A stretch of DNA of 23,111 nucleotides. Origin: Neolentinus lepideus HHB14362 ss-1 (lineage: Eukaryota > Basidiomycota > Agaricomycetes > Gloeophyllales > Gloeophyllaceae). How positions within the stretch are numbered: the first letter of the stretch is position 1; every line of letters starts with the position of its first letter. The notes beneath the pieces are model-generated. The model had not been told where the DNA came from. It saw only the letters and a program-made list of their open reading frames with translations, and did not search any database. Positions 16,552 to 19,373 of the stretch are shown piece after piece. The stretch is taken from NCBI GenBank assembly GCA_001632425.1, contig KV425688.1, positions 15,167 through 38,277 on the forward strand, in the 5' to 3' direction. A program made the translations under genes and the position numbers.

Positions 16552-16675
16552 CAAAGCGAACTCCATTTAAATTCGGCATTCCCTGAGATCCTAAATGACA
16601 CTGTTCATTGCACGGGTGCCTCTATCAAGTGATAGCGGGTGCGCGACAACAATGAAAAGAACATAGGGATCCCCT

Positions 16676-16914
16676 GACGACACAGGCCAGTAGTGCAACG
16701 GCGAGGTCATCACGCCTCTCAGTTGCAAGCAGAGCTGAAGGGCAAGGCGGCAAAAATTAGATAACCAGAAATGAGGGCGGTGCCCTCATAATAGTGGTTA
16801 AACTATTAAGAACAGCTAGAACAGCCAAGGTCAGAAAATAATTTCTTAATAGTTAGAAGACCCGATATTACTCACATACTACACTTGATCTAAGCCAAAA
16901 GGCCAGAGTGGTAA
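16676..16914 (-). ncRNA. U2: U2 spliceosomal snRNA gene with an internal intron
   Basis: Exon 1 (16914-16876) contains GGCCTTTTGGCTTAGATCAA and then GTGTAGTAT, the universal U2 5' region that pairs with U6 and the intron branch site (GUAGUA). Exon 2 (16815 to about 16676) starts CTGTTCTTAATAG. It forms stem IIa (AATAGT/ACTATT) and a perfect 8-bp stem IIb (ATGAGGGC/GCCCTCAT), followed by the Sm site AATTTTTG at about 16754-16761. A stem III candidate (CCTTCAG/CTGAGAGG) and a stem IV-like loop GTTGCACTAC follow. Joining the exons gives GTAGTAT-CTGTTC, exactly the conserved sequence. Mature length would be about 180 nt, near the usual size. The 5' end is placed by analogy, ten bases before GGCC; the 3' end is approximate. 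U2 pairs with the branch site in pre-mRNA. It lies in tandem with DPH2, about 300 bases downstream of it. Confidence 0.93.
16816..16875 (-). other. 60-nt spliceosomal intron inside the U2 snRNA gene
   Basis: Starts GTGAGT and ends TTCTAG on the minus strand. Branch-site candidates are CTAAC in TTCTAACTATT (about 38 nt from the acceptor) and CTGACC (about 19 nt). Size and signals match the mRNA introns of the neighbouring genes. Confidence 0.9.
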
Positions 16915-16938
16915 GGAATCCACGGGCAGGAGGCCGCC

Positions 16939-16946
16939 TTATATTT
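16939..16946 (-). promoter_or_regulatory. TATA-like element of the U2 promoter
   Basis: AAATATAA on the minus strand is centred about 28 bases upstream of the inferred U2 5' end, a normal Pol II spacing. Confidence 0.5.
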
Positions 16947-17210
16947 GTCAAGAGGGTAGCGCACGGACCAGGGAAGCGCGCGGTCAAGTCATAGACGCGC
17001 CACCGGGCGCCCTGCCTCGACCCAGCCACCAAGGCGCATCTGCGATGGTGGACGCGAATAGGTTTAGGCCAGTGACATATGCGTTCGATACATAAAATCA
17101 TAGAGAATATTCTATTTATACACACTACATTGCCAGTCAGGCCTTGTGTTTACTATACAGCGGTCAAATCAAAACTCACATCACGCGTCAGCCACTGGCC
17201 CTGCGCTTGC
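16947..17210. other. Spacer between U2 promoter and DPH2 3' end
   Basis: It holds the distal U2 promoter and the DPH2 3' untranslated region. Open frames across it (for example 16868-17125 minus) overlap the U2 gene and show no protein family features. Confidence 0.4.
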
Positions 17211-19373
17211 CTATCCGACGCTATCATTCTTGTACCCTCTGGCGATACCGCTCCGCCCTTGTTCCAAGACACTTGGTGCGTCCTCCCCTACCCTAGTCTC
17301 GAGGCCACGGAAGGCGCGAGATTGCAAGAATTCAGCTGAGGTAGGTAGACAAAACATCAGGGAAAGATGGACCAGACGCATTTGAAGTGAGACTGACCTG
17401 CCGCACTATCTGCTAGTGTGGCGACGGTATCATCCTGATTTCTTAGGATAACCGCAGATGGTCCGCCTTCTCCAACACTGGACGTATTGGCATCTAATAA
17501 GATTCAGTGCGATTATACTGCATACAGCATTGAGAACACTGACCTGCACCACCAAACCGTCTTGATGTCCGATACTTCCCCGTGATCAAAGAGAATTGGG
17601 GTTGATCAGGGTCCTTTTCGCTGGTCGATTCACCTACGTACAGGATCAGCAGACGAAATCCCGCAATCAAGGCTGGGACATACGGTTTGCATCATCCTCT
17701 GGAGCTTCTCGTGCATGATCTGCCAATAATCGCTCAAAATCGAGTACATATCGTCCTGTCCAAGTCTGCTCTGCCTGAAGGGCTATTTCAAGCTCAAAAG
17801 GTGTCACGATGGCTTTGTGGAACTCCTATGGAGGGGATTTAGTTCGTGAAAGCTGGGAGAAGAGTGTCATCGTCGTCGGACCTTGGACTCGATTAAGCTA
17901 TTTTCTGGACACGCCACGAGAACGAAGCATTCGATCTCCATGAAATTCGCTAGCTTGGCTGGGTTGAGCTTGCCCACGCTGATTGTGTACGTTTTCTTCC
18001 GATGTCGAGCGAGAAGCGAGCGCAGATGTGATATCAGTGGTAAATAGGACGCTGCAATTTGTCGGATCAGTAGGATTACTTAGAATCCAAACTGTCACTG
18101 AGTCGGACTACGGACCGATGCCGAGAGTCCCGACCAAGATCCCAAAAACGTCTGCATCTCTTGCTCGCTGCACAGTTGCGTACCGCCGCATAAGCAATTT
18201 ATTGGTTCGTCCTGATTCGAGACGTGTCGATCTGGTTTCTGGGTCGTATGAATACACCTAGGCATGTCATCTAGAATGAGAAACGACAGTAAAGAGAAGT
18301 AGACAGACCTCCGACGACGAATGTGTCATGAGCAAGTTCGTCAGACCCAGATTTTCGCCTCCGATGTACAGAATGAGAGATGGGTCAACATCCCTATTTG
18401 CCTCCTTACTGTCGTGTTTTCCAGAGTTCAACTGGGTCTCTGCTGTTGCTGACTCTGTTGCAGAGGCAACGGCACTGGGCTGAGGGGGCGACGGGTCAAG
18501 CCGTAATGGTGGCCGATTGTACTGAACAACGGTGTCAGGAATAGACTCTCTTAGTCTTGTGACCACATAATCTGCATCAGTCATTGAACGGGACTCCGTG
18601 AAATAGAGCTGGTAAGAGCAAATACCTGCCAAGTGTGCGTACGCAACGTCATGTCTTAATACCACTATTTTCTCCACTTCCATCGTATACGACTTGACGA
18701 TCTCTCCCAGCTTTGACGCACAATCCTCCACATCCAGATGTTTTTTCCCAAACACATAGATCACGGGCATGCGGTACGTCCTGAGAATGGTAAACCCAAC
18801 CCCAACGAATGCAGTTCGAGATTCAGACTCACTTGCTCATACAAGCATGCCCGTAATGGACGATCAGATCCGCGTCGACGTGTTGCGCGGCTACTTCATC
18901 CGCGCAGCAACTGTTTCGTCAAGCTCTACCGTTAATTTTGACAGATCAAAGCATGCTCGAGGAATCGAACCTGCCATAGGATGTATCCGCAAGGACGTAT
19001 AGCTCCGGAGGTCCATCGTCGTTATGGGCTTTTTCCAGTTCTCTTTTTAAGTAGCGGTAGATGGGTACGGAGTCGTGTAGGAGTTCATCGGGGAATTGTA
19101 GGGCTATCTGGAGGGGGTCAATAAATATTGTCTCGTTTTGATCATGTTCTCCGGCAGAGTGAATCCCTTCCGTCCAAGCGACTGAAAATGGGCGAGGAAC
19201 GCACGCACTCTTTTGAATGATCCCTGTATGATCTCCGTCGCCACCCTCGGAATCTCGTAATAGTTCTTGAACTCCTCGACAGATCTGAAATCAGGCGTGC
19301 TCTTTTCCGGCTGCACTTCGATACTGCGGGTGATGGCGTCTTCGCCAGACGGAGCGAAAGTAGTGGCAGCCAT
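17211..19373 (-). CDS. DPH2: Diphthamide biosynthesis protein 2 (11 exons), complete
   Basis: Exons in order are 19373-19209, 19107-18971, 18910-18833, 18780-18626, 18571-18309, 18257-18116, 18051-17882, 17825-17684, 17633-17544, 17493-17398 and 17335-17211, giving 520 residues (yeast Dph2 has 534). Family blocks are in order: [100 protein letters not shown] and the C-terminal [11 protein letters not shown]. Cys102 (or 103), Cys124 and Cys361 sit where the Fe-S ligands are known in Dph2; 102 and 124 have the expected 22-residue spacing. Dph2 pairs with Dph1 in the cytosol to transfer the aminocarboxypropyl group of SAM to a histidine of EF2. The ATG at 19371-19373 is the only one in frame. 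The second donor is an unusual GTTCGA. Intron 18572-18625 is 54 nt, in frame and stop-free. Confidence 0.95.

Follow-up and report, generated by a model that had tools for sequence, protein, structure and literature searches.

A U2 snRNA gene of Neolentinus lepideus with a probable spliceosomal intron behind its branch-site-pairing sequence

Can a U2 snRNA gene carry an intron whose removal itself depends on U2? The question is raised by a locus of Neolentinus lepideus, a wood-rotting mushroom, in a window of 23,111 nt (the whole stretch of DNA analysed, on contig KV425688.1). The first-pass annotation had described a U2 gene split by 60 bases on the minus strand, directly behind the sequence that pairs with branch sites. 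The split is borne out, and the ends of the insert can be given exactly (Table 1). As to the extent of the gene, the proposed start stood, while the proposed end at 16676 fell short, the match to the Rfam U2 model RF00004 reaching 16669. The minus-strand scan with this model that had been suggested for the locus gave 67.0 bits over the whole split gene with the insert included (cmscan; gathering score 46), and each exon was also recognized on its own (Table 1). The two exon scores sum to about 104 bits, a figure that serves as a guide and not as the score of the joined RNA, as separate scans allow truncated hits. At the junction, the two separate matches follow on from each other with no gap or overlap in the model.

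Table 1. Features of the split U2 locus and of the neighbouring gene (window coordinates; nt, nucleotides)
Feature	Position	Strand	Remarks
snRNA promoter motif TGGTCCGTGCG (11 nt)	16960-16970	minus	first base 56 nt from first U2 base
TATA-like box AAATATAAGG	16937-16946	minus	within 35 nt of the motif
U2 snRNA, full-length	16914-16669	minus	RF00004 model 1-192; 60-nt insert within
U2 exon 1	16876-16914	minus	stem I and branch-site-pairing GTGTAGTAT; RF00004 1-39, 39.1 bits alone
GT-AG intron, 60 nt	16816-16875	minus	5' splice site GTGAGT 16875-16870; 3' splice site TAG 16818-16816
Intron segment AACTATTAAGAA	16843-16854	minus	exact reverse complement of exon 2 start
Likely branch site CTGAC	16830-16834	minus	branch A 16831, 15 nt from intron end (pattern scan)
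U2 exon 2	16669-16815	minus	stem IIa onward, Sm site, stems III and IV; RF00004 40-192, 65.4 bits alone
Exon 2 segment TTCTTAATAGTT (contains 5' arm of stem IIa)	16801-16812	minus	partner of 16843-16854
Sm-site region CTAATTTTTG	16751-16760	minus	same in all four U2 copies
Downstream hairpin, candidate 3'-processing stem	16600-16660	minus	arms 16660-16650 and 16610-16600, by paralog comparison
TPR gene	14065-10149	minus	protein matches NEOLEDRAFT_1143513 (Neolentinus lepideus HHB14362 ss-1), 98% by initial gene model

A search for intronless U2 genes elsewhere in the genome, also proposed in the first-pass annotation, was successful. The 33.8-Mb assembly holds three other U2 genes, called C23, C49, and C10 after their contigs, which score 119.0, 118.0, and 116.3 bits with RF00004. 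The insert is absent from all three, and GTAGTAT-CTGTTC is read without interruption. Pattern searches allowing up to two mismatches located the exon 1 core at four exact genome sites, together with a C89 site with two mismatches, and the exon 2 start at four exact sites. From these counts and the three intronless paralogs it follows that one U2 gene in four carries the insert. Were the intron ancestral to the four genes, three losses would have to be assumed, and a single gain is the simpler history. Beyond this genome, the split-U2 pattern was found in no stretch of a viral and a genome contig collection, both nearly empty of U2 genes. The intronless pattern was likewise absent from the viral contigs and occurred in four stretches on three contigs of the genome collection. 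These stretches (L045-L048) have the exact intronless U2 core in contigs deposited as bacterial genomes, probably as eukaryotic contamination.

Set against the three paralogs, the ends of the insert are unambiguous and fall on GT...AG, the 3' end reading CTAG. By simple arithmetic, the chance that a random insert would have a flush GTRNGT...YAG together with CTRAC near its end is of the order of 10^-6 to 10^-5. Two branch-like sequences are present, CTGAC (Table 1) and CTAAC at 16856-16852, 37 nt before the intron end. Of the two, CTGAC is the likely branch site and CTAAC an alternative. The seven introns of the neighbouring TPR gene provide a local reference. Their positions stem from an exon-by-exon fit to NEOLEDRAFT_1143513 with zero residue mismatches (path cost 56, i.e., seven times 8); the next-best matches of the TPR protein come from Heliocybe sulcata (80%) and Gloeophyllum trabeum (76%). 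At this gene, the window thus belongs to N. lepideus or to a fungus that cannot be told apart from it, in agreement with the Agaricomycete supposed in the first-pass annotation. These introns are 46-62 nt long, a range that includes the 60 nt of the insert, and begin with GTACGT (three introns), GTGAGT, GTGAGC, GTAAGC, and GTAAGT, all of which fit GT[AG][AC]G[TC]. Their G+C content is 0.39-0.54, compared with 0.35 in the U2 insert. The loose branch pattern YTNAY is present in five of the seven and is therefore a soft criterion. Both this anatomy and the intronless paralogs of the same genome lend good support to the original claim of a spliceosomal intron directly after the branch-site-pairing sequence.

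Quite probably, the locus is a working U2 gene of N. lepideus in which a short spliceosomal intron of the ordinary type has been acquired, exactly at the border of the branch-site-pairing sequence and stem IIa. Transcription by RNA polymerase II from the host snRNA promoter would give a precursor, with the downstream hairpin perhaps aiding the formation of the 3' end. Recognition of GTGAGT by U1 and of CTGAC by pre-existing U2, followed by joining at TAG, would restore GUAGUAU-CUGUUC. The product would be an intact U2 of about 186 nt (taking the Rfam ends), distinct from the other three chiefly in the variable 3' half. The splicing steps of this scheme are general knowledge of splicing; for the split gene itself, we infer transcription, splicing, branching at CTGAC, and snRNP assembly from the sequence. 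That such a U2 must be spliced by spliceosomes already containing U2, as stated in the first-pass annotation, follows from how splicing works. The paradox that this seemed to imply does not arise: U2 can be provided by the three intronless genes, which have the same promoter motif, so that the arrangement would be self-feeding and not circular, with no problem of start-up.

The main alternative is that the split copy is a recent pseudogene, in which a once-working U2 gene was hit by an intron-like 60-nt insertion, or in which the intron is poorly spliced, the other three genes being sufficient. Given three intact intronless genes, the split copy would indeed be dispensable. The promoter gives a first means of weighing this explanation. 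The motif TGGTCCGTGCG is found in exact form at all four U2 loci, at a distance from U2 of 56 nt in C23 and C49, as in the split copy, and of 65 nt in C10. In five U1 genes, which were themselves located by way of the motif, the corresponding distance is 55-57 nt. The genome has 29 motif sites, versus 12 for the reversed control, and ten of the 29 precede snRNA genes, namely four U2, five U1, and one of the two U4 genes; the motif is absent before three U5 genes, the second U4 gene, and five U6 genes. A TATA-like box lies within 35 nt of the motif at all ten snRNA-linked sites, as judged with a search pattern that was drawn up with the split-U2 box in view. In total, 12 of the 29 motif sites have such a box, the additional two being unrecognized sites (L032 and L033). 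Around the 17 box-less sites there were no Rfam matches at gathering score and no U1, U2, U4, or U5 cores within 150 nt. The promoter motif and its spacing are thus intact in the split copy, which speaks against a pseudogene. On the other side, its TATA-like box is the least regular among the four U2 loci.

The transcribed region offers a similar balance. Over 187 positions, a comparison of the joined exons with C49, C10, and C23 gives 15, 17, and 22 differences. Among the other three genes there are 11, 13, and 2 substitutions, and the split copy is thereby the most diverged of the four, as a pseudogene might be. The differences are unevenly placed: 1, 2, and 3 of them (versus C49, C10, and C23, respectively) fall within the initial 107 nt once the exons are joined, and 14, 15, and 19 in the remainder. 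The branch-site-pairing GUAGUA GTGTAGTAT and the Sm site AATTTTTG do not differ among the four copies. In the variable part, the stems were compared with arms picked by eye in four sequences and without a formal covariation test. One stem III pair is U-A in the split copy versus C-G in C23, C49, and C10, and another is C-G in the split copy, G-C in C49 and C10, and A-U in C23. In the inner part of stem IV, C-G and G-U of the split copy stand against U-G and A-U (A-C in C10). A single C-A mismatch in stem III leaves the split copy with eight of nine pairs, a count shared by C49 and C10; C23 has nine of nine. The mismatch is a point in favour of a pseudogene. The changes in stems III and IV mostly keep pairing, which would attest to past function, possibly from before the intron, and not to present-day splicing.

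Taken with the intact core and Sm site, the promoter motif, the conserved first 107 nt, and the paired stem changes give the split copy the look of a working gene. The insert itself, with its flush GT-AG ends, branch-site match, and typical length, is unlike a random insertion. In our judgment, the pseudogene explanation is unlikely. In the first-pass annotation, the idea of a functional split U2 was to be abandoned if the split locus was a silent pseudogene beside an intact intronless U2 that is expressed. Intact intronless U2 genes are indeed present, three times over; the split locus, however, does not have the look of a silent pseudogene, judging from its promoter motif, its core, and its mostly kept pairings.

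The downstream hairpin has a place in this discussion as well. In yeasts, RNase III enzymes (Rnt1, Pac1) cut hairpins of this kind to mature U2, and a hairpin occurs at the equivalent place at all four U2 loci. In C23, C49, and C10, the stem starts 14 nt past the start of the conserved GGGATC and is predicted at 0.79-1.00, with ten pairs. The homologous arms of the split copy start at 13 nt and form 9 of 11 pairs, compared with 10 of 11 in each paralog. Two pairs are changed on both sides, as seen in TTCATTG/CAATGAA of the split copy and TTCGCTG/CAGCGAA of C49 and C10. When one arm is slid along the other, nine pairs are obtained in register and at most eight elsewhere, and an equally good stem is given by 90 of 5000 shuffles. 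The predicted folding of the split copy is less clear. A 90-nt fold favours an alternative register (0.73-0.93) over the homologous one (0.00-0.06), and a 69-nt fold gives no clear preference, the respective values being 0.26-0.34 and 0.31-0.47 with mismatches set apart. This lack of a clear fold in the register of the paralogs is a further point for a pseudogene. Because the fold favours the alternative register, our confidence in a working gene was lowered slightly and the pseudogene gained by as much. On these predictions, the hairpin is a weaker witness that counts for little in the case for a working gene, and it is not taken as firm.

A different possibility concerns the intron as a regulatory device. 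The intron holds a segment that is the exact complement of a stretch early in exon 2, within which the 5' arm of stem IIa lies (Table 1); together they form a perfect 12-nt inverted repeat with arms 30 nt apart. When the intron was dinucleotide-shuffled 20,000 times, a complement of 12 nt came up in 8 cases; this test was carried out after the repeat had been spotted and was not planned beforehand. The complement may be a relic of the origin of the intron, a means to hold unspliced U2 inactive, or a coincidence. According to the second option, the unspliced RNA would be a switch, kept inactive by the helix between intron and exon 2, and the efficiency of splicing would set the yield of U2 in a form of spliceosome autoregulation. 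The rarity of the complement is in line with this proposal, and so is the predicted precursor fold, in which the 12-nt helix forms at 0.71-0.99 and stem IIa at 0.00. In the same fold, CTGAC is open (unpaired 0.88-0.96), whereas the A and G of the 3' splice site are closed, with unpaired values of 0.04 and 0.02, and so is the 5' splice site over its first five bases (0.02-0.04). Such pairing of both splice sites in the naked precursor could slow splicing, a point against the working-gene explanation. Against the switch stands the fact that the energy model is a poor guide to this region: stem IIa is under-predicted also in the spliced RNA of the split copy (0.04-0.09) and in C23 (0.03-0.06), the values for C49 and C10 being 0.47-0.87. 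Moreover, the 96-nt local fold is no more stable than shuffled sequences (z -0.02), and the whole precursor is only modestly more stable (z -2.05). A switch of this type is decidedly improbable on present indications. As a stronger form of the working-gene explanation, it may be true together with it.

That the insert is not an intron but, for example, a small mobile element or a scar left by repair with U2 itself as template is most improbable. The start of exon 2 does recur in it, as the 12-nt inverted copy and, at its end, as a direct copy of 7 nt. Against this reading it counts that the direct match is at chance level (10,694 of 20,000 shuffles), that the insert matches the genome once, at its own place, at E up to 10, that by eye no target-site duplication is seen at its edges, and that its splice signals are complete. 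A templated origin would not exclude that the insert now works as an intron. An introner-type mobile intron was also considered and rejected on the same single genome match.

The favoured reading, a working U2 gene with a gained intron, has precedents of several kinds. Rhodotorula hasegawae is a Pucciniomycotina yeast with introns in several snRNA genes. The intron of its U2 gene is reportedly 60 bp long and follows directly on the branch-site recognition domain, and the acquisition of introns is said to have been discussed on its discovery. In both insertion point and length, the N. lepideus intron would, on that description, be its equal. That the R. hasegawae U2 gene has an mRNA-type intron was described by Takahashi, Urushiyama, Tani, and Ohshima in 1993 (Mol Cell Biol 13:5613, as cited in PMC2586383). 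An mRNA-type intron in U2, probable in N. lepideus, is what the two fungi share. They differ in that R. hasegawae is a distantly related yeast, whereas N. lepideus is an Agaricomycete with an intron in one of the 19 snRNA genes found.

The U6 snRNA of fission yeast and of further fungi is also described as having introns (Tani and Ohshima 1989, 1991; Canzler et al. 2016), and in fission yeast intron-containing and mature U6 are both present according to PMC8917221. Like the N. lepideus intron, these are spliceosomal introns in an snRNA of the catalytic core. Unlike it, they interrupt a different snRNA, encoded by a polymerase III gene, and in fission yeast both RNA forms have been seen. The third case is U3 snoRNA, for which PMC5832005 lists eight fungal genomes with split and intronless copies, e.g., that of Coprinopsis cinerea; according to this paper, frequent interruption is known for no small structured RNAs other than U3 and U6. 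The likeness is that a small structured RNA has an mRNA-type intron and that split and intronless copies coexist. However, U3 acts outside the spliceosome, so the self-dependence of U2 does not apply to it. Among the literature matches listed (titles and abstract starts, with subscription journals thinly covered), none reports a U2 intron in an Agaricomycete, and an earlier description is possible.

While a U2 intron has been known since 1993 from R. hasegawae, new aspects of the present case are the lineage (Agaricomycetes, Gloeophyllales), the coexistence with intronless copies, and the 12-nt complement. According to an old idea, to which snRNA-gene introns are relevant, introns can be gained by reverse splicing into RNAs near the active site of the spliceosome. 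A second lineage with an intron at seemingly the same position of U2, beside three intronless genes, opens the way to a clean test. Since these three genes are in the genome, one could delete the intron or change it while the cell still has its U2. The shared position could reflect common descent or repeated insertion. One may go further and propose, tentatively and with low credence, that U2 gained its intron independently at the same phosphate as in R. hasegawae, an intron fresh from excision having been reverse-spliced into U2 in the spliceosome core, and that the complement bars unspliced U2 from snRNPs. If true, the presence of the intron in one copy of four would mark a recent event, observed mid-course.

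The other 18 snRNA genes that were found (three U2, five U1, two U4, three U5, and five U6) have no intron-sized insert. The two U4 matches are 135 and 143 nt long on a 138-position model, and the three U5 matches are 116-119 nt on a model of 117 positions. Each of the five U6 matches measures 117 nt on a 105-position model, an excess of 12 nt that is too short for an intron; four of these sequences were inspected by eye and the fifth was judged by its equal match length. For U1, a profile search of the genome with RF00003 returned no matches. Of the five U1 loci known through the promoter motif (L019, L020, L021, L023, and L034), three match RF00003 at 28-35 bits, with a cut-off of 69.5, and the remaining two have no match at E 0.01. 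With scores so far under it, annotation at the Rfam cut-off would miss the U1 genes of this fungus, and further copies may exist in the genome. Similarly, no U3 was recovered by a profile search of the genome, a method that is no proof of absence. Two of the U1 genes, L020 (C22:402311, minus) and L021 (C22:412579, plus), are identical over 175 nt and lie in opposite orientation about 10 kb apart.

Two further features of the window were noted. An open frame at 1700-2266 of the plus strand has no Pfam match at E 0.001; we take it to resemble the RNase H end of a copia-type retrotransposon. The exon at 18267-18770 of the minus strand belongs to a probable diphthamide synthesis protein, with a PF01866 score of 31.3 bits that narrowly misses the cut-off of 33.2. 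Finally, the two unrecognized promoter sites noted above, L032 (C59:58070-58080) and L033 (C59:66276-66286), are both on the minus strand, about 8.2 kb apart, and combine the snRNA-type motif with a TATATAA box. The two sequences downstream of them are near-identical and gave no Rfam match, whether at gathering score or at E 0.01; they possibly encode an unrecognized small RNA transcribed by polymerase II.
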